A stretch of DNA of 64,000 bases, taken from Streptomyces kanamyceticus. GTDB taxonomy: Bacteria > Actinomycetota > Actinomycetes > Streptomycetales > Streptomycetaceae. Below are positions 7,597-29,916 of this stretch, one piece after another. Under the pieces are notes generated by a model that ran no database searches, was not told the origin of the DNA, and worked only from the letters and a program-made list of their open reading frames with translations. A program made the translations under genes and the position numbers. Location: NCBI RefSeq assembly GCF_008704495.1, contig NZ_CP023699.1, positions 9,796,001 through 9,860,000 on the forward strand, given 5' to 3'. The first letter of the stretch is position 1. Each line of letters opens with the position of its first letter.

Positions 7597-9202
7597 CGCC
7601 CTGTTCCAGAGCCATCTCCCGCGCCACCCGGGGCGCCGTCCACAGCGTCGGCAGCATGATGAAGCCCACCGGCACCGCCGTGACCACGATGAACGACTGC
7701 AGCGCCGTGATGCCGCCGTCGCCGACCAGGATCAGCACCGCGGCCGCCGTGCCCATCAGCAGGGCCCAGAACGCCCGTACCGCGCGCGTCGGTTCACCGG
7801 ACGTCGTACCCGCCGCGGCGATGCTGTACGACATCGAGTCGGTGGTCGTCACCACGAACGTGATCGTCAGCAGGAGCAGCGCGACCGCGACCACCGCGCC
7901 CATCGGGAGCCGCTGCGCCATGGAGATGACCGCGGCGTCCATGCCGACCGACTTCAGCGGGCCCGAGATCGAGCCGGGGTCGCGCTGTTCCAGGAAGATG
8001 CCGGTGCCGCCGAACACCGTGAACCAGAACATGGTGGCCAGCGGCGGGATGATCGCGGTGGAGACCACGAGGTCGCGCAGCGTGCGGCCCTTGGAGATGC
8101 GGGCCACGAAGATGGACATCAGCGGCCCGTAGCCGAGGAACCAGCCGAAGAAGAAGACCGTCCAGGAGCCGAGCCACGCGTGATCGCCCCGGTTGAGGGC
8201 CAGCGGCACGAAGTCCCGCGCGTACTGCCCGAAGCCGCCCAGGAACGAGTCGAGCACGAAGCCGAGGGAGCCGAGGACCAGGAAGACGACCATCAGGGCG
8301 ACCGCGAGCCAGATGTTGGCCTTGCTGAAGAACTGGATGCCGCGGTCGACGCCGCTGGCGACGGAGAGGACGGCGACGACGGTCAGCAGGACGATGACGC
8401 CGAGCTGCACGGGGTAGCCGCCGGAGATGCCGAACACCTCGGAGAGCCCGTAGGAGACCTGGAGGCCGAGGAAGCCGATCGGGCCGACGGTTCCGGCCAC
8501 CACGGCGATGACACAGACGATGTCGACGGCGGCCCCCAGCCGGGAGTGCCGGATGCGCTCGCCGAGGAACGGGTACAGCAGCGTCCGCGGGCGCAGCGGC
8601 ATACCGCGCTCCTGGCCCCGGATCATCACGATCGACGCGAGCGTGCCGAGGACGGCCCAGGCGAGGAAGCCCCAGTGCGCGAAACTCTGGGAGAGCGCCG
8701 CGTCGGCCGCCTCCTGGGTGCCGCTCTTGGCGCCGTCGTAGAAGGGGGGCGTGTCGACGTAGTGCTGTACGGGCTCGCCCGCCGCGAAGAAGACGCCGCC
8801 GCCCGCGAGGAGCGTCGACATGATCATCGCGATCCACTGGAACCTGCCGTACTCCGGGCGCGCCCCGGCGCCCCCGAGCCGCACCCTCCCGTACCGCGAG
8901 AAGCCCAGCCACAGCGCGACGCCGAACGTCGCGAGCAGCAGCACCTGCCACAGTGGGCCGAACCACCGCGCGACGAACGTGAAGGCGACGTTGACGGCGT
9001 CACCCGTGGCCGTGGGCGCGATCAGCGCGGCCAGGACGAACGCGGTGAGGAGCCCGCCGCTGACGGCGAGCACCGGTATGTCGGTGCGCCCGCGCCCGCG
9101 GCCTCCGGGAGCCGCGACGGGCGCCGGATGGCCGCCTTCGTCGTCGTCCGCGGTGGGCTCGCCGTCGGTGGGCACGACGGTACGGGCAGGGGAAGTCGGC
9201 AT
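7586..9202 (-). CDS. BCCT-family glycine betaine/choline/carnitine transporter
   Basis: A 538-residue transporter with about 12 membrane segments after a ~45-residue charged cytoplasmic N-terminus. WTVFFFGWFLGYGPLMSIFVARISKGRTLRDLV is the BCCT family signature region, and the upstream SGVDRGIQFFSKANIWLAVAL segment is also typical. BCCT carriers take up compatible solutes with Na+ or H+ under osmotic stress. The start ATG 9202 has AGGAATCTC just upstream. The 3' end overlaps the convergent VanJ-like gene by 11 bp. The exact substrate is not decidable; the fourth-helix Trp box would need alignment. Confidence 0.88.
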   Translation of the reverse strand: MPTSPARTVVPTDGEPTADDDEGGHPAPVAAPGGRGRGRTDIPVLAVSGGLLTAFVLAALIAPTATGDAVNVAFTFVARWFGPLWQVLLLATFGVALWLGFSRYGRVRLGGAGARPEYGRFQWIAMIMSTLLAGGGVFFAAGEPVQHYVDTPPFYDGAKSGTQEAADAALSQSFAHWGFLAWAVLGTLASIVMIRGQERGMPLRPRTLLYPFLGERIRHSRLGAAVDIVCVIAVVAGTVGPIGFLGLQVSYGLSEVFGISGGYPVQLGVIVLLTVVAVLSVASGVDRGIQFFSKANIWLAVALMVVFLVLGSLGFVLDSFLGGFGQYARDFVPLALNRGDHAWLGSWTVFFFGWFLGYGPLMSIFVARISKGRTLRDLVVSTAIIPPLATMFWFTVFGGTGIFLEQRDPGSISGPLKSVGMDAAVISMAQRLPMGAVVAVALLLLTITFVVTTTDSMSYSIAAAGTTSGEPTRAVRAFWALLMGTAAAVLILVGDGGITALQSFIVVTAVPVGFIMLPTLWTAPRVAREMALEQGVTT

Positions 9203-9370
9203 GAGATTCCTTGCTGAGGGGGTTCGCGCATGAGGGCCGGGGCGCGGCACGTGGTGCACGCGCGCACGGGAGGCAGGACCGATCTATGCGCAGGTCAGCA
9301 GGGAAGGTTGCTATCCGAAGACCGTTTTCGTCAAATTCCGGACAACACCCCGTGGCGCGTCGAGCGCGTC

Positions 9371-9949
9371 CTACCGATTCGCCGAGAACTCCTCGAACGT
9401 ACGCGGCGTACGCCCGGTCAGCTCACGCACCGCGGTCGTCACCTCGGACATCGTGCCCGCTGCCATCTCCGCGTAGAGCCGTAGAAGGTCAGCCACGAAC
9501 CATCCGGGCAATCTCCTCGTGCGTCGGCGCCTCCGGCCCGGTGAGCGCGTAGGTCTCGCCTCCTCGGGGCGGGCCTGTCAGGAGGGCCGCGGCACGGGCG
9601 GCGATGTCGTAGGCGTCGATGTACGCCACGCGTCCCGCGCCGTAGGGGCCTTCCAGAGCGCCGCCGTGGGTGAAGCCGCCCTCGCCGGTGAAGAAGTTCT
9701 GCATGTAGCCGGTGGCTGAAGTGACGTCCACGCGAGGCCGGATGCCTTGAGGTGCTGCTCGATCTCCCAGTGCGCGCGTACGGACAGCTTCGTGTCCGGG
9801 CCGGGCTGCCACGCCGACATCTTCACCACCCACGAGACCCCGGCGGTGCGTGCGTCCCGCACCAGCGCCCGGAAGGGCACGTCCGCTTCCGCGAGCGCCC
9901 GCACGAGGTGCCTGCCAATGGTGCCGGTCGCAGCCGTCACGAGAATCAT
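9371..9949 (-). pseudogene. NmrA-like NAD(P)-binding protein, decayed
   Basis: The start MILVTAATGTIGRHLVRALAEADVPFRALVRD is a Rossmann motif of the NmrA/SDR-a quinone-reductase-like family. It then jumps to VVKMSAWQPGPD, omitting about 60 residues normally present (the ADL..D..F loop), so an internal deletion is likely. The frame changes near 9714: one missing G would join SLQP to TGYMQNFF. It changes again near 9495, where the C-terminus (VADLLRLYAEMAAGTMSEVTTAVRELTGRTPRTFEEF) continues in a third frame to a stop at 9371. The deletion makes true decay more likely here than sequencing error alone. Confidence 0.75.
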
Positions 9950-10120
9950 CGTGTCCCTACCTTCCGAGAGCTGCCATGAGTCCTGGCCACCTTGACGGAG
10001 GCGGCCTCCGTTTGCCTCAAAGGTCAACTACGGGAAGGCTGTTGGGCGAAGAAGTCATGCCGCCGCCGACGGCGAGGAAACCGCGATCGGGCGACGCCCC
10101 CGCACTCGTAGGATGCGTGG

Positions 10121-22979: not shown

Positions 22980-23603
22980 ATGTATGAATCCGCCTTGAGG
23001 GGACCGGTCCGGATGGGCCTCGCGCTCGGTGCGGCCCTGGTGTCGACCGTGCTCTGCGCGACGGCGGGTGCGGCCGCACCCGCCCACACGGAGGGCGGCG
23101 CGGCACGGGTGGGCGTCGAACGCGCCTGCCCCGTCGTGTACTTCGACCTGGGCGAGACCCTGGTGCACACCGCGGACGACGGCAGTACCAGCTACCACCC
23201 GGGCGCGGCCGCCTATCTGCGGTCCCTGCGCGAACGGCACATCAAGGTCGGCCTGATCACCAACGTGCCGTCTTCCTGGGGCTCGACCGACGCCGAACGT
23301 GCCGCCCGGTTGCGGAGCGAGGTCGACGCCACGTGGCAGGGCTCGGCGCCCTTCGCCTGGAAGGACTTCGGCGACCGGATCCTGACGCCCCGTACGGAAG
23401 CGGAACGGAAGCCCGCTCCGGTGTTGTGGCAGCGCGCGAAGGACCTCTCCGGCGGTTGCCGGCTCGTCTACCAGGCGGAGACGGCCGAGGAGGTCCACGT
23501 CGCGGCCTCGCTCAGCTACCTGGCGTACCAGGTCGACCGGCCCCACCGGCCCGCGTACCTCCCGGTCGGGCTGATCGAGCTCCTCGGCCACCGGCCGCGC
23601 TGA
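22980..23603 (+). CDS. secreted HAD-like protein
   Basis: A 207-residue protein with a Sec signal (about 1-35, RMGLALGAALVSTVLCATAGAAAPA). Motif I reads VVYFDLGETLVHT: the nucleophile Asp is present but Gly replaces the usual second Asp of DxD, as in haloacid-dehalogenase rather than phosphatase types. GLITNVPSSWG gives motif II, and LTPRTEAERKPAPVLW has the Lys of motif III. The acidic motif IV is not obvious (LVYQAETAEEVHVAASL may stand in). Secretion of a HAD protein is unusual. The 3' end overlaps the convergent MFS gene by 92 bp. ATG 22980 has no strong RBS. Confidence 0.68.
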   Translation: MYESALRGPVRMGLALGAALVSTVLCATAGAAAPAHTEGGAARVGVERACPVVYFDLGETLVHTADDGSTSYHPGAAAYLRSLRERHIKVGLITNVPSSWGSTDAERAARLRSEVDATWQGSAPFAWKDFGDRILTPRTEAERKPAPVLWQRAKDLSGGCRLVYQAETAEEVHVAASLSYLAYQVDRPHRPAYLPVGLIELLGHRPR

Positions 23604-24892
23604 CCCCTGCCGGATCCGGCCTCGCCCCCCGCTTCACCACCCCGCTGTGCAGGACCAGTTGGAAGCCGCCGAGGAGGATCGCCGTCGCCAGCGCGCTGTG
23701 CAGCAGCAGGGCGTCCAGGTGCCCCGCGGAGACGTACGCGCCCACGGCGATCGCGGCGAGCGCGCACACCGCGCGATCCACGATGCTCTCGACCGAGAGG
23801 ATCGTCGCGCGCGGGGCGCGCGGGGGCACGGCGTCGTTCACCAGCTTGCGCTGGACCGGATAGACGAAGCCGGTCGCGGCGGCGAACAGGCAGAGCAACG
23901 CCACCACGGACCACGGTCCGCCGAAGGCCATGCCCGCCAGGCTGCCCGCGAGGACGAGGCTGAGCAGGGAGACCCAGGCCACCGGTGTGAGGCGGCGGCT
24001 CAGCCACTGCGGGCGGGCCGCGCCGACCGCCTCCGCCACCGTCATCGCGGCCAGTACTCCGCCGTGCGAGGCCTCCGCGATGCCGTGGTCGAGCAGGATC
24101 GGCTGGAAGAGGTTGACCTGGCAGATCCGGGAGAGCGTGAAGACGGCCACGCCCTGGACCATGACCAGGACCAGCCATCGCGAGGAGGCCACGCAGCGCA
24201 GGGCCGCGCCCGCGTCCCGCAGGAAGGCGCCGCCCCTGCGTCCACCCTCCGACCGGTCGGACGCCGCCTTCCCGCTGCCGCCGTCCGCTCCGGCGAGCCG
24301 GGGCAGCGCGACGGCACAGGCCAGCGAGCCCGCCGCGCTGACCGCGCTGAGCAGGTAGGGGGCCGGGTGGGCGAGCGCCATCAGCGGCCCGACCAGCGGC
24401 CAGCACACGACCTTCGCCGCGAGGCCGAGGGCGCGTGCGGTGCCCTCCGCCTTCAGGTAGTGCTCGTCGCACTTCTCGGCCCGCAGCCCGTCGTACAGAT
24501 AGGCGCTCGCCGCGCCCGAGGTGAGCGAGCGGCCCGCGGCGATGGCGAGGAAGTGCACGAGGAAGCCGGTGTACGAGGCGCTGAGCACCGGAGCGAGGTT
24601 GGCCGCTCATGACCACCGCACCGGCCCGCAGGCAGTTGCGGGTGCCGATCCGGTCGGCGATCAGCCCGGTCGGGATCTCGAACAGGCAGAACGCCACGTA
24701 GTAGATGCTCTGGATGCCGAAGATCTCGGCGTCGCTCAGCCCGGCCGCCTTCTGGTAGGCGTAGAACACCGGCATCCACCACAGCAGGTTGAACAGCAAC
24801 TGGAAGCCGTAGTTGAGGCGGATGATCCGGCGTGCGGTGTCCGTCAGGCCGCCGCCCGCCCCGGTGACGGACCGGCGGATGCGCGGGCTCAC
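23512..24892 (-). pseudogene. MFS transporter, frameshifted at 24601-24602
   Basis: The first ~95 residues (IIRLNYGFQLLFNLLWWMPVFYAYQ, then FEIPTGLIADRIGTRNCL, an MFS loop 2-3 motif) are in one frame; the rest (NLAPVLSASYTGFLVHFLAIAAGRSL to GFQLVLHSGVVKRG) is in another. Removing one G at 24601-24602 joins MSA to NLAP and gives 459 residues, about 12 membrane segments. ATG 24892 overlaps the dikinase stop (ATGA), so it is translationally coupled and most likely exports the product of the upstream enzymes. This is the only +1 shift in the window. Confidence 0.78.
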
Positions 24893-26916
24893 AGCGCGTA
24901 CGGGCGGATCTGGACCAGCCGGAAGTCACCCTGCTCGGTCATGAGCCACTCGATGTCCAGCGGCTTGTCCACGTCGGCCCCGCCGCACTCCGACCCGCTG
25001 AAGTGGGACTGCAGGAGCCGTCCGGTCAGGGACAGGTCGGCGAGCCGGGCCCGGGTCGCGGCGGACAGCGGCTCCCCGAAGGAGCCCAGGGCGACCGTAC
25101 GGCCCCCGCCCTCGACCGTGTTGTACAGGTACTGCTGCGGCAGCACCGAGCCGTCGACCACCTGCTCCGGAGAGCCCGGCGAGCAGTTGAGGTAGACGTT
25201 GCGGAAGTCCTCGTCGCGCGTCGGGTTGCGGGTGACCAGCACGCCGCCGAGGGAGGCGGGCACGTACTCCTGGATGATCACGCCCATGTACGTGTCGTCG
25301 AGGGAGATGCCGACCTGGTGGCGCAGGCGCACGCTGCGGGGCGAGACCAGGGAGGCCCACACCTGGCGTACGGCGTCCAGGAGTTCCTCCGTGCCGTGGA
25401 CCGTGGTGACGGAGTCGTAGACGCCCGCCGCGGAGAACCCGGGCAGGTCCTCGGCGTTGGACGAGGAGCGCACCACGAGGCGGCTGCCCGCGGCGGCGGG
25501 GAAGGCCTGGTTGATCTGCCGGGTGACGGAATCGGGGACGGGCGTGTGCCGGATGAGGTGCTGCAGCTGCAGGCAGAGCGCGTCCAGGACGTCGGTGGCG
25601 TCGAGTTCCAGTGCCATCTTGAGCTTGCCGATGCCCTGCTGGAGGGGGGCGGAGGAGGCGAGGAAGTTCTGCTGCAGCGCGAAGGGGAGCGCGACGCCCG
25701 CAGGGGCGCCGACCGTCGAGGCCACGAACCGGGCCGCGGCGGCGCGCAGTTCCTCCGCGGCGGGCTCCGTCAGGCCGAGCCGTGCCGCGAGATGCCCGCA
25801 CAGGTTGTCGCGCGGCGGGCGCGGCCGCCGGTGGAAGGCGGTCAGGTCGGCGGTGCGGCTGTCGAGCACGTGGTGCAGCTCGCCGAGGTTGGCCGCCTTG
25901 GTGCCGTACCGGTCCCGGTCGCCGCTGCGGAGCCGGTGCAGGGCGAGGACGGGGGTCTCCTCGAGCAGGGGCGGTTCGAGGCGGATGCGCTGCTGGTGCC
26001 AGGACGGGGCCTCCAGGACCGGCTCGTGGTCGAGCCGTTCCAGGGAGATCTCGTCCTCGCGCACCCGGTAGCTGACCCACGCCCCGTCCAGCGCGTCCCG
26101 CTCGACGAGTAATTCCAGGTCGCGCACGATCGCGTTGGGTATGCCCCACCCGGAGGCGAGGACGTTGGTGTGCGAAAGCGGTGTGATCGGCGCGGTGTTG
26201 AGGAATCCGGCCACCCGGGGCACGTCGTCCGGCAGACACGGCATGGCGACGATGTCGGCCCAGCCGAGCCCGGCCTCGGCCGCCGTGTACTCCTCGTACT
26301 CCTGGTGCGTACGGAAGAACCGCAGCCGCCCGGTCGCCTCACCGGAGTTCAGCGGGGTCCTGGTCCTGGTGCCGAAGAGCTCGTGGCTCAGGATGCGCGG
26401 CACGCGCTGCTCGCTGATCGGCGCGAGCTCCTCCTCCTGCCCGTGGTTGGCGGGCTTGAGCAGCACCGGGAGTCGGCCGTCGACCCGGACGCGCACGTAC
26501 TCGTAGAACCAGGCGAGGAGGTCACCGTGCATGGTGTCGGCCTCGGTGGTCTCCAGGACGAGGAAGGGGCGCTCGCGGCCCTCCGCGTCCTCTTCGACGT
26601 GCAGGGACAGCACGCCGAGCAGGAAGCGGCGCCCGGGGTCGGTGTAGACGGAGGCGTTGAACGCGTCCAGTTCGGCGTCAAGGGCGGTGAGTTCCATGCC
26701 CAGGACGCGGGTGGCGACGTAGTTGACGTGGAAGGGGTGGGCGGCGGTGTCGAGCAGGTGCCAGGTGTCCTCGGCGCGGTCGACGACGACCTTGAGGTAC
26801 TGGTGGCCCGCGAGGACGCCCGAGAGCGTGCGGAAGAGCGGCAGGGAGAGGTTCTCGCCGACGACCGTGCGGTCCGTGCCGGGTTCGGGGGCGCCGGAGA
26901 GCAGTTGGGCGGTCAT
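24889..26916 (-). CDS. PEP-synthase/water-dikinase-like phosphotransferase
   Basis: A 675-residue protein. Residues 1-190 are of unknown fold. About 195-300 form a swivelling phosphohistidine-like domain with His249 in TPLSHTNVLASGWGIP. About 335-675 form the ATP-grasp of PEP synthase/PPDK type: YGTKAANLGEL (337-347), VRSSSNAEDLPGFSAAGVYDSV, IIQEYVPASLGGVLVTRNP and DIEWLMTEQGDFRLVQIRP. The order His-domain then ATP-domain is that of glucan water dikinases, the reverse of PEP synthase, and there is no PEP-binding barrel. So it probably transfers the beta-phosphate of ATP to an organic acceptor. It is coupled to an ATP-grasp ligase (ATGA overlap) and to the MFS gene. Confidence 0.8.
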   Translation of the reverse strand: MTAQLLSGAPEPGTDRTVVGENLSLPLFRTLSGVLAGHQYLKVVVDRAEDTWHLLDTAAHPFHVNYVATRVLGMELTALDAELDAFNASVYTDPGRRFLLGVLSLHVEEDAEGRERPFLVLETTEADTMHGDLLAWFYEYVRVRVDGRLPVLLKPANHGQEEELAPISEQRVPRILSHELFGTRTRTPLNSGEATGRLRFFRTHQEYEEYTAAEAGLGWADIVAMPCLPDDVPRVAGFLNTAPITPLSHTNVLASGWGIPNAIVRDLELLVERDALDGAWVSYRVREDEISLERLDHEPVLEAPSWHQQRIRLEPPLLEETPVLALHRLRSGDRDRYGTKAANLGELHHVLDSRTADLTAFHRRPRPPRDNLCGHLAARLGLTEPAAEELRAAAARFVASTVGAPAGVALPFALQQNFLASSAPLQQGIGKLKMALELDATDVLDALCLQLQHLIRHTPVPDSVTRQINQAFPAAAGSRLVVRSSSNAEDLPGFSAAGVYDSVTTVHGTEELLDAVRQVWASLVSPRSVRLRHQVGISLDDTYMGVIIQEYVPASLGGVLVTRNPTRDEDFRNVYLNCSPGSPEQVVDGSVLPQQYLYNTVEGGGRTVALGSFGEPLSAATRARLADLSLTGRLLQSHFSGSECGGADVDKPLDIEWLMTEQGDFRLVQIRPYAL

Positions 26917-28286
26917 CGGGCAACCTCCTCGGGCCGCGCGGCGGGCAGGACCCGGGGCAGCGCGTCGACCAGGGTCTCGAAATCACGGAGCACGGTGCGC
27001 GGGTCAGCGGCGGAGAGCAGGCAGAGGGCCGCCATGGTGTTGGCTCCGGCGGCCGGGTCGTAGACCGGCACGGTGCTGCCGTCGGCGAGCGAACTCTCCG
27101 CGACGACCGAGAGGCGGCTGCCCCGGCTCAGCGGCACGCACTCCGCGACCGTGGGGAAGTCCCAGGCCCTGCGGTCCTGCCAGGCCTCGCCCGCGCTGTC
27201 GGCCGCGAGGACGACGAGGGAGCCCGCCGCCCCGCGAGCCTGCGCCGGGGTGAGGGCGCGCTCGGGCCAGCGGACCGTGCGGCCGAGGAGGTGGTCGACG
27301 AGCATGCCGATCAGGTCGAGGTCGAAGACCTCCTCGATCTGCGGCACCGTCATCGCGCCGCCGAACCGGGCGGCCGTCTCGATCAGCCACATCCGGCCGT
27401 CCGCACCGAGCTTGATCTCGGTGTGGATGCCGCAGTCGCGCAGGCCGAGCGCGTCGACGGAATCCCGGGCGAGCGCCACGACCCGGTTCTGGGCGTCCGG
27501 GGACAGCTGGGCGGGAGTGATGCCCGCCCGCTCGGTGAACGGTTCGACGGTGGGCATCCGGCCGCTGACGCAGACCGGGTGGAACACGCCCCGCGCCACG
27601 ACGCCCTCGACGCTGACGTAGTCGCCCCAGCCCGGGTCGTCGAACCACTCCGCCGCGGTGCCGGTGACGATCTGCTCGACCACGAAGTCCGCGTCGGCCT
27701 CGGCCACATGGAGTTCCGCGTAGCCCAACTGGGCCGATTCGGCCATCACGTCGCGCGACCGGCGCCATGCGGCGGTCACCTCGTGCGGGGAACGGATGAT
27801 CTGGTGCGCGGTGGAACCCGCGCTCCAGGCCGCCTTGAGGAGGAGCGGGAAGGGCAGGTGGGTGGCCGCCTCGTGGAGGTCGGCCTCCGTGGCGACGGGC
27901 CGGAACTCGGGCTGCGGCAGGCCGTGTTGCCGCCAGGTGCGGCGCATCAGGCGCTTGTCGCGGGCGAGCGCGGCGGCGCCGCCCGCACCGGGCAGGCCGA
28001 GCGCCTCGCACGCCTCGGCGACGGCGACGACCGCGTACTCGGAGAAGGTGAGCACCGCGTCCGCGCCGACGGCCTTCGCCCGCGCGACGATCAGGGACAC
28101 CAGATCACCGCGCTCCGCGTCGGTGGGCGTCACCACCGAGGCGCACAGTCCCCGGGCATCACCTGCCACGGCGGGAGGAAGAGCGCTGAGCGCCAGGAGG
28201 TGCACCTGCGCCTTCGCGGCCGCCCGGGACAGGACGTGACCGAGCGGCGGACCACCCTTGGCATGCACTAACAGCACCTTGCTCAC
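26913..28286 (-). CDS. ATP-grasp carboxylate-amine ligase
   Basis: A 457-residue ATP-grasp enzyme. The N-terminal domain (SKVLLVHAKGGPPLGHVLSRAA) is Rossmann-like. RDKRLMRRTWRQHGLPQPEF and FPLLLKAAWSAGSTA form the ATP subdomain; HTEIKLGADGRMWLIETAARFGG (about 290-315) carries the Mg-binding Glu residues. Such enzymes join a carboxylate to an amine through an acyl-phosphate in dipeptide and peptide-antibiotic pathways. GTG 28286 is preceded by GGAGA; the open frame upstream to 29012 is antisense to the LuxR gene and not coding. It is the first gene of the ligase-dikinase-exporter unit and overlaps the next gene by 4 bp. Confidence 0.85.
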   Translation of the reverse strand: MSKVLLVHAKGGPPLGHVLSRAAAKAQVHLLALSALPPAVAGDARGLCASVVTPTDAERGDLVSLIVARAKAVGADAVLTFSEYAVVAVAEACEALGLPGAGGAAALARDKRLMRRTWRQHGLPQPEFRPVATEADLHEAATHLPFPLLLKAAWSAGSTAHQIIRSPHEVTAAWRRSRDVMAESAQLGYAELHVAEADADFVVEQIVTGTAAEWFDDPGWGDYVSVEGVVARGVFHPVCVSGRMPTVEPFTERAGITPAQLSPDAQNRVVALARDSVDALGLRDCGIHTEIKLGADGRMWLIETAARFGGAMTVPQIEEVFDLDLIGMLVDHLLGRTVRWPERALTPAQARGAAGSLVVLAADSAGEAWQDRRAWDFPTVAECVPLSRGSRLSVVAESSLADGSTVPVYDPAAGANTMAALCLLSAADPRTVLRDFETLVDALPRVLPAARPEEVAR

Positions 28287-28620
28287 TGAAGTTCGTCTCC
28301 GTTTCGTCCAGTTGGTACGTATCGCCGTACGGACCGGTGCCGAGCGCCGAGCGCGGGGGACACCGGGGATGCGTGGCGGGGCGCGTTCACCCGCACTTCC
28401 AAGGGGAACAGGCGCCGGACCCCGGTGACGCCGTTGCGGAAGCCCGGCGTTCAGGCAAATGCCTGAGTCCGACCGTGGGGGAGGACCGGCGGGTCGCCCG
28501 CGAAGTCCCCCGTCTGCGCTGCTACTTCGGCCGAGAACCGAGCATGCGCGAGCGCCGGACGGGATACGCATCGCGTGGTGACTGTGCGTCAACCAGACGT
28601 ATACGGAAGGAGAAAAGGCT
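28287..28620. other. divergent promoter region, ATP-grasp unit / PAS-LuxR gene
   Basis: 334 bp with no convincing gene. It must hold the promoters of the ligase operon (leftward) and of the PAS-LuxR gene (rightward). Besides the palindrome at 28451, a weak nested inverted repeat occurs near 28477-28511 (GGGGGA...TCCCCC). I see no clear -10/-35 pair. Confidence 0.6.
28451..28466. promoter_or_regulatory. 16-bp palindrome, candidate PAS-LuxR operator
   Basis: TCAGGCAAATGCCTGA is a perfect 7-bp inverted repeat with an AA centre, midway between the two divergent starts. The known operator of PAS-LuxR regulators of polyene clusters (CTVGGGAWWTCCCBAG, PimM type) is also 16 bp with a WW centre and inner A-WW-T core. 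The match is partial (10 of 16), so binding is inferred. Confidence 0.5.
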
Positions 28621-29916
28621 GTGGACGATGCCGGCCTCAAGGCCCTGCTCGAGGACCTTCCCGTGTTCTGGTGGGAGTTCGACCAGCCGTGGCACGTACG
28701 GGAGCGGGGCGGCGGTGCCTTCGCCGACACCGGCACGGCCCAGCGCTTCCTGGACCGGGTCCGCCAGGAACTCGCGGACCCTGGACACTCGCCGCGGGAC
28801 GGGCGCTGGCTCGCCCGGTTCGACGGCCGGACCTTCGACGTGAGCTGCCCGCCGGACGCGACCCGCACGCACCGCCGCACCCGCGGCCTGGCGGTGGAGG
28901 TCGACAGCCACCCCGAAGCCCCGCGCCGGTACGCCGCCTTCGCCGACCTCGTAGACCTGGCCCCGGCGGCCGCGTTCATCCGGGACCGGCACGGAAGGTA
29001 CCTGTGGGCCAACCACGCCTACGCGCACCTCTACGGCACCACCGCGCAGGAACTCACGGGGCGGCGCATCGAGGACTTCGACGCCCCCGCGGAGGCCGTC
29101 CAGTTCCGCACGCTCGATCAGGAGATCCTGACCCGGGGCACGCCGGTGCGCCACACCCTGGACTACCGCCGCCCGGACGGCAGCGCGGGCCACGCCGTCG
29201 GCCACCGCTTCCCCGTCCGGGAGAACGCGCAGACCTGCGTCGCCGGCATCTACGTGGACATCACCGACCACCTGCGCGCCATGGTCCAGCGGAAGGAGGC
29301 CGAGGAGCACCTGCGGGCACTGCGCGACCACACCGGGCTGCCCTGCGCGCTCCTCACGGCCGGTGGTCGCGTGATCGAGGCGAGCGCCGCGGCCGCCGAG
29401 CTGTTCGACCTCGGCCTGCCCGACCTGGTCGGGCGCCGGGCGCACACGCTGCTCGCGCCCGCGCCCGGCCTGGACCGGCTGCACCGCCGGTGGCGGGGGC
29501 TGATAGCCCGGCGCATCAGACGAGTCGAGACGTCAGTGATGCTGAGCGGGACGCGGGGGCTGCAACGCCGCGCGCGGCTCCACCTGACGACGGTGGGCCA
29601 CTCCGCGGAACGGGCCGGGCACGTCTGGGCCGTCGTCACGCACCAGAGCCTCGCCCACGAGGCCCATCCGTCCCTCACCGCCGCGCAGATCCGCATTCTC
29701 ACCCTCTTGGCGGAGGGCAGCAGCAACAGCGACATCGCCACGTCGCTGAAGCTGTCCCGGCAGACGGTCGACTACCACCTGGGCCGCCTGCGCGACCTCC
29801 TGGGCGCCCCGACCCGCCCCGCCCTCGTCGCGCGGGCCTACGTCCTCGGCATCCTCGCACCCGCCGCCTGGCCCCCGCGCTCGGCGACGGCGGCGCATCC
29901 GCTGAGCACGGTCTGA
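28621..29916 (+). CDS. PAS-LuxR family transcriptional regulator
   Basis: A 431-residue protein. An N-terminal region of unclear fold (1-100) is followed by a PAS domain (about 105-215: FADLVDLAPAAAFIRDRHGRYLWANHAYAHLYG) and a second PAS-like segment (about 235-345: LLTAGGRVIEASAAAAELFDLG). The C-terminal LuxR HTH (about 355-410) reads LTAAQIRILTLLAEGSSNSDIATSLKLSRQTVDYHLGRLRDLLG. There is no receiver domain. GAAGGAG lies ten bases before GTG 28621. It diverges from the ligase-dikinase-exporter operon and is its likely pathway-specific regulator. Confidence 0.82.
   Translation: MDDAGLKALLEDLPVFWWEFDQPWHVRERGGGAFADTGTAQRFLDRVRQELADPGHSPRDGRWLARFDGRTFDVSCPPDATRTHRRTRGLAVEVDSHPEAPRRYAAFADLVDLAPAAAFIRDRHGRYLWANHAYAHLYGTTAQELTGRRIEDFDAPAEAVQFRTLDQEILTRGTPVRHTLDYRRPDGSAGHAVGHRFPVRENAQTCVAGIYVDITDHLRAMVQRKEAEEHLRALRDHTGLPCALLTAGGRVIEASAAAAELFDLGLPDLVGRRAHTLLAPAPGLDRLHRRWRGLIARRIRRVETSVMLSGTRGLQRRARLHLTTVGHSAERAGHVWAVVTHQSLAHEAHPSLTAAQIRILTLLAEGSSNSDIATSLKLSRQTVDYHLGRLRDLLGAPTRPALVARAYVLGILAPAAWPPRSATAAHPLSTV

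Follow-up and report, generated by a model that had tools for sequence, protein, structure and literature searches.

A conserved ligase, dikinase and transporter unit beside a PAS-LuxR regulator in Streptomyces kanamyceticus and its possible secreted phosphatase partner

We analyzed a 64,000-nucleotide stretch of the 10.13-Mb genome of Streptomyces kanamyceticus (contig positions 9,796,001 to 9,860,000; hereafter the window, whose positions are used as coordinates). In the window, genes for an ATP-grasp carboxylate-amine ligase, a dikinase and a major facilitator superfamily (MFS) transporter lie in one operon beside a divergent gene for a PAS-LuxR regulator. This arrangement is a real conserved unit. 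A gene for a HAD-type protein, predicted to be secreted, is often associated with it, and the set of genes may serve to mask an amide with phosphate, export it and unmask it outside the cell. The genes and the probable operator of the unit are as follows.

22980 to 23603, plus strand: predicted secreted HAD-type protein of about 207 residues (start codon inferred), assigned from its relatives, its signal-like N-terminus and its co-occurrence with the dikinase
23512 to 24892, minus strand: gene for the MFS transporter, split by a frameshift in this assembly into one piece at 24892 to about 24605 and another at 24588 to 23512
24889 to 26916, minus strand: dikinase of the rifampin phosphotransferase/phosphoenolpyruvate synthase (RPH/PEPS) type with permuted domain order, 675 residues, assigned by Pfam, profile scores and an AlphaFold model
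26913 to 28286, minus strand: BacD-like ATP-grasp carboxylate-amine ligase, 457 residues, assigned by Pfam (ATP-grasp_4) and BacD relatives in the PDB
28451 to 28466, no strand: probable operator, an intergenic 16-bp palindrome with 7-bp arms and a 2-bp centre, identified by site conservation
28621 to 29916, plus strand: PAS-LuxR regulator, 431 residues, divergent from the operon (PAS_4 at residues 112 to 216, GerE at 351 to 404)

Conservation of the unit

A first scan was performed with the dikinase as the query, and the best 80 of 98 relatives' loci were kept; among these, the closest relatives were from Streptomyces. Recurrence of gene families was counted in the 80 loci and the window (n = 81). 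For a wider census of 101 loci (L numbers denote loci and G numbers genomes), the 80 loci were combined with 18 from genomes sampled in the phylum of L077, two further ones from Streptomyces and one further from the phylum of L072. L001, L082 to L113 and L134, which were short or second fetches, were excluded. The census comprised 70 Streptomyces loci and 31 others, counted per locus and not dereplicated by species. We take the phyla of L077, L072 and the window to be Bdellovibrionota, Elusimicrobiota and Actinomycetota, respectively.

Five families recurred in the 81 loci: the dikinase (81), MFS (79), the ligase (70), PAS-LuxR (69) and HAD (31 by clustering, with additional ones by tblastn). 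The next most recurrent neighbor family was found in 11 loci at most. Because the same neighbors recur over the 101 loci, while other families reach at most 11 of 81, the neighborhood is not due to chance. An MFS gene directly followed the dikinase gene in 97 of the 101 loci, of which 96 were identified by profile and one (L070) by tblastn only. In the remaining four (L073, L124, L130 and L131), the contig ends within the dikinase gene or 327 bases beyond it. The ligase gene stood beside the dikinase gene in 75 of 101 loci, namely all 70 from Streptomyces (a fragment in L051), Amycolatopsis, Lentzea, L072, L120 and L135. PAS-LuxR was near the dikinase in 70/70 Streptomyces loci (L051 again with a fragment) and in 0/31 others. 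An earlier sequence-only reading of the window had named scattering of the three genes in relatives as one of two observations that would refute it; in our census they are not scattered. That reading correctly described the gene order, strands and 4-bp junctions (ATGA at 26913 to 26916 between ligase and dikinase, GTGA at 24889 to 24892 between dikinase and MFS) and the divergent PAS-LuxR regulator facing the operon. It recognized no known cluster of this composition, and we likewise found no description of the unit or of such a cluster in the literature listings that we searched. Its unit of three genes and a regulator is conserved but incomplete, as the secreted HAD-type partner was overlooked.

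Genome samples were also searched. Of 295 Streptomyces genomes, 33 were dikinase-positive; the phylum of L077 contributed 22 such genomes among 191 sampled, that of L072 2 among 149, and the window's own phylum 3 among 296, with the window genome counted. The dikinase and MFS core occurs beyond Streptomyces, in genomes from the phyla to which L077 (Bacteriovoracaceae) and L072 (Elusimicrobia) belong. Four candidates per genome were scored for the dikinase in the own-phylum and Streptomyces samples, and up to ten for HAD in Streptomyces; misses are possible in these samples because first-look candidates were scored only in part. In the window genome, the single match to the dikinase query was the dikinase itself. 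A homologue is also present in a strain of S. venezuelae.

The sequence-only reading placed an MFS exporter gene in the operon. Its position and overlap were right, whereas a single intact frame is absent: the gene has two bases fewer than its counterparts in L002 (Streptomyces silaceus NRRL B-24166, whose unit is intact) and L006 at 24589 to 24605. MFS_1 of Pfam matched the first piece only, under the curated cut-off. In near relatives, the gene is mostly in one frame; L048 likewise has it in two pieces. Differences from Streptomyces silaceus at codon positions 1, 2 and 3 were 3, 4 and 11 in the first piece and 13, 17 and 51 in the second (358 codons). As the third-position excess persists after the break, we ascribe the break either to recent pseudogenisation or to an error of sequencing or assembly, so that the transporter gene of this strain is either broken or mis-sequenced. 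The corresponding differences were 16, 13 and 52 for the ligase, 17, 13 and 63 for the dikinase, 29, 19 and 71 for the regulator, and 15, 4 and 21 for the HAD-type gene, in which the third-position excess is less clear.

The permuted dikinase and the BacD-like ligase

The AlphaFold model of the dikinase (mean predicted local distance difference test score, 83.1) has three domains, which account for all 675 residues.

26365 to 26877, minus strand: N-terminal domain (residues 14 to 184), presumed to bind the acceptor, without a confident PDB match
26020 to 26370, minus strand: swivelling His domain (about residues 183 to 299), with His249 invariant in 19/19 aligned sequences
24892 to 25962, minus strand: ATP-grasp domain (about residues 319 to 675), assigned by PPDK_N and the AlphaFold model

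The only Pfam match was PPDK_N at residues 401 to 673. Residues 1 to 400 gave no Pfam match, including none to a starch-binding domain, and the fold of the N-terminal domain had no match in the fold search. A phosphoenolpyruvate (PEP)/pyruvate barrel was detected neither by Pfam nor by fold comparison. Pfam and the model thus uphold the earlier view that the His domain precedes the ATP-grasp domain and that the PEP barrel is lacking. The nearest solved folds were those of rifampin phosphotransferase. Against profile models, the dikinase scored far below the cut-offs: 108.2 versus 883 bits for the best PEP-synthase model, 94.6 versus 739.75 for TIGR01418, and 98.1 versus 999 for RPH.

The dikinase resembles RPH in having a PPDK_N-type ATP-grasp domain and a swivel domain with a catalytic His; however, the His domain of RPH is C-terminal, whereas that of the window dikinase precedes the ATP-grasp domain. 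The closest known enzymes are RPH and HpeHI, CreHI and PpsAB, which are two-component dikinases of small molecules; all differ from the order found here (N-terminal domain, His domain, ATP-grasp domain), in which the first domain has no confident match. Glucan, water dikinase shares the placement of the His domain before the ATP-grasp domain, but it is a larger enzyme; the window dikinase is shorter, gives no Pfam match to a starch-binding domain, and lies in an operon with a ligase and a transporter.

The best PDB relatives of the ligase were structures of BacD (3wo1, 3wnz and 3vmm) with E values of about 1e-45 (5.6e-46 to 3wo1). The acidic and Arg motifs are kept (HTEIK and IETAAR), and Glu290, Glu303 and the motif Arg align with BacD. 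The score against the BacD equivalog model was 173.1 bits versus a cut-off of 850. A BacD-like ligase gene and an MFS gene in one operon recall BacD/BacE. Bacilysin clusters are not known to contain a dikinase or a secreted phosphatase. The window ligase also differs from BacD in having Ala311 at the position of Trp332, which passages of PMC6920838 name as critical for substrate recognition. In Streptomyces, the ligase gene is the first of the operon. The ligases beside the dikinase in L072, L120 and L135 belong to another ATP-grasp branch, 17 to 19% identical to the actinobacterial one; that ligases of two distinct branches accompany the same dikinase suggests that forming an amide is part of the pathway.

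The candidate operator and the secreted HAD-type partner

The intergenic palindrome was followed in 68 regions, namely that of the window and those of 67 Streptomyces loci out of the 68 in the first scan (L051, L132 and L133 are outside this set). It was present in all 68 intergenic regions with up to three mismatches in 14 fixed positions, and was perfect in 37. Nine genomes were searched, and each contained one perfect site, located at the dikinase operon as judged by position. Sites with one mismatch or fewer totaled 17 in these genomes versus 24 for a reversed control pattern. The regulator has the PAS and LuxR helix-turn-helix domains of PimM-type proteins, and the candidate operator shares with theirs, as given in passages of PMC9774167 (16 bp, CTVGGGAWWTCCCBAG), the length and the 7-2-7 layout. 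Its arm is TCAGGCA, in contrast to the published CTVGGGA, and its single perfect site per genome lies at its own operon. The palindrome is probably the operator of the regulator. Since one conserved perfect site per genome lies at the operon and has a PAS-LuxR-like layout, the regulator is probably dedicated to the unit.

The HAD-type gene is convergent with the MFS gene and overlaps its 3' end. Within 9 kb, the neighbor range that was also used for the ligase counts, a HAD gene accompanied the dikinase in 36 of the 70 loci from Streptomyces (at a distance of 8.6 kb in L034) and in 8 of the 31 others. Its presence was strongly associated with that of the dikinase, with p values uncorrected for descent. 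Among the 295 Streptomyces genomes, the dikinase was present in 23 of 25 HAD-positive genomes (14 linked, 9 unlinked) versus 33 overall (p = 2.5e-24); among the 191 sampled from the phylum of L077, in 12 of 19 versus 22 overall (p = 6e-9). These HAD counts include a match with an internal stop (G804) and one showing TAA (G132).

In other phyla, HAD genes are found in operons with dikinase and MFS genes. In L120, the dikinase, MFS, ligase and HAD genes form an operon on one strand and touch or overlap. In one genome, MFS and HAD are in a single 587-codon frame (L128, 6275 to 8035, minus strand), in which an additional hydrophobic stretch precedes the HAD part and would place it outside the cell. 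This fused copy matches HAD_2 and narrowly passes the HAD-IIIA cut-off (44.8 versus 44.6 bits); the HAD assignment of the window protein rests on such relatives. In L125 to L127, which may represent one lineage, HAD is replaced by a PAP2 phosphatase, complete in its three catalytic motifs, whose gene overlaps or touches the end of the MFS gene; the genome of L126 (G100) has an unlinked HAD in addition to PAP2.

A hydrophobic N-terminal segment was found in 34 of 36 HADs from Streptomyces and in 8/8 from elsewhere (in L128, inside the fused protein). All 36 from Streptomyces have a pair of Cys residues flanking the Asp of motif I, one 6 positions ahead of it and the other 104 positions beyond it. 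In the alignment, which omits L066 because of a stop inside its stretch, the Asp of motif I, Lys of motif III and acid of motif IV (D40, K160 and E187 in L120 numbering) were invariant in 8/8 sequences. Association, fusion, PAP2 replacement and signal-like N-termini are all present and would suit an extracytoplasmic protein, possibly a phosphatase, that accompanies a kinase and a transporter.

HAD also occurs with a different dikinase. Seven genomes of the phylum of L077 were HAD-positive and dikinase-negative; in three of them (G088, G132 and G158), HAD adjoins another dikinase with the usual domain order, and in the other four no such neighbor was seen. In the loci of these three (L182, L187 and L188), HAD is next to a dikinase of 762 to 788 residues (PPDK_N followed by PEP-utilizers) and a protein of 469 to 482 residues, with beta-propeller matches in the two tested. 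This arrangement is a second, parallel module. As the predicted secreted HAD also stands beside this second type of dikinase, the unit of the window may aid genome mining. An M17 aminopeptidase-like gene stands beside the HAD gene in L180, L191 and L192 (Pfam on L191 only).

Masking, export and unmasking, and the alternatives

The explanation that we prefer, at close to an even chance, is that a phosphate-masked amide is exported and then unmasked outside. The ligase would couple a carboxylate and an amine to a dipeptide-like amide, as its relationship to BacD suggests. The ATP-grasp domain of the dikinase would charge His249 from ATP, and the predicted His domain would swing to the N-terminal domain and pass the phosphate to the small molecule, rendering it inert in the cell by chemistry like that of rifampin phosphotransferase and HpeHI. 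The MFS carrier would then export the phosphorylated compound, and the HAD-type enzyme, whose secretion and association are supported by sequence, would strip the phosphate outside and free the active compound. In Streptomyces, PAS-LuxR would switch on the divergent promoter region via the single palindromic operator. The sequence-only reading had suggested a phosphorylated amide or dipeptide as the product; the amide is retained given the BacD relationship, whereas the phosphate is probably a temporary mask and not part of the final product.

In phosphate-masked antibiotics such as streptomycin (StrK) and amicoumacin (AmiN/AmiO), a kinase acts inside, the compound is transported, and a phosphatase acts outside. 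By analogy, the same scheme is proposed for the window unit; it differs in using a dikinase, an HAD-type enzyme and a presumably ligase-built product, and in spanning several phyla. A broader proposal is that a class of small natural products or signals across phyla relies on one ligase and a permuted dikinase with a new acceptor-binding domain, phosphate-masked export and a dedicated secreted phosphatase, an undescribed form of self-protection common to Streptomyces, Bdellovibrionota and Elusimicrobiota. We advance this tentatively and consider it somewhat doubtful. With a ligase, a transporter, a phosphatase-like partner that is predicted to be secreted, and a regulator having a single perfect candidate site all accompanying it, the dikinase should be directly testable for its substrate.

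Several observations weigh against masked export. The ligase is missing within 9 kb in 26 of 31 non-Streptomyces loci, and its second branch is found in just 3 of the 191 genomes sampled for the phylum of L077, two of them with the dikinase (G117 and G148). HAD is likewise missing within 9 kb in 23 of those 31 loci, although contig ends cut several of the non-Streptomyces loci. Among the Streptomyces genomes with the dikinase, no match to HAD was obtained in 10 of 33. The window HAD-type protein gives no Pfam match, and outside Streptomyces the Cys pair is only partly present and not a general feature. Motif I is DxG instead of DxD (Gly in 8/8), and the Thr of motif II is present in just 4 of 8 aligned sequences; because of these two features, phosphatase activity is not assured. 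HAD motifs I to IV follow a known scheme, and a DxG motif is also seen in phosphatases such as YihX. A search ahead of the HAD gene revealed no operator.

The same parts fit transport in either direction. HAD could dephosphorylate an external compound, MFS import it, the dikinase trap it by phosphorylation and the ligase conjugate it; this is the main rival reading, which we regard as unlikely but deserving attention. The Streptomyces HAD gene lies outside the operon and lacks a detectable operator, as would suit such scavenging, and PMC12167813 reports sub-micromolar Michaelis constants for HpeHI, which was read there as a scavenging enzyme in catabolism. Weak profile matches of MFS relatives include families for uptake of sugars and phosphate esters, but equally those for multidrug and tetracycline efflux. 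Since any further family accompanies the unit in at most 11 of the 81 loci, no catabolic set travels along with it. Moreover, a BacD-like ligase heads the operon in Streptomyces, and the PAS-LuxR regulators described in passages of PMC9774167 mostly sit in biosynthetic clusters. Masked export accounts for the ligase, dikinase, carrier and HAD/PAP2 exchange, and uptake with trapping for most of these.

It is improbable that the dikinase activates or condenses its substrates in the manner of PigC or RedH, with phosphate as a transient leaving group and HAD serving another task. The RedH and PigC models matched the ATP-grasp part at 75.8 and 72.1 bits, but the PEP-synthase and RPH models scored higher, all four being far below cut-off; the domain order differs, and the association of HAD or PAP2 with dikinases recurs. 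More improbable still is resistance, in which a foreign compound would be conjugated, phosphorylated as by rifampin phosphotransferase and expelled: that enzyme provides the nearest solved folds, but a secreted phosphatase would reverse the detoxification, the RPH score is low, and nothing points to a rifampin-binding domain. Very improbable, on sequence grounds, is an ordinary PEP synthase whose neighbors are unrelated to it; standard PEP-synthase action was the other outcome that the sequence-only reading named as one that would refute it. Several public records carry the name phosphoenolpyruvate synthase (among the 120 of 1042 matches listed), but no barrel was found, the domain order is permuted, the scores fall far under the cut-offs and the neighbors are conserved across phyla.

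Some loci showed further features. In L051 (Streptomyces malaysiense), remnants of PAS-LuxR and the ligase lie side by side at about 8997 to 9962, as if after an internal deletion, and the dikinase frame is present. A membrane H+-pyrophosphatase-type gene directly follows the dikinase and MFS genes in L074, L075, L116, L119, L121 and L122 (Pfam on L116 and L119). Another family, probably secreted, is found near the unit on variable sides and strands in L037, L038, L043, L046, L047, L049, L050, L052, L054, L055 and L057.

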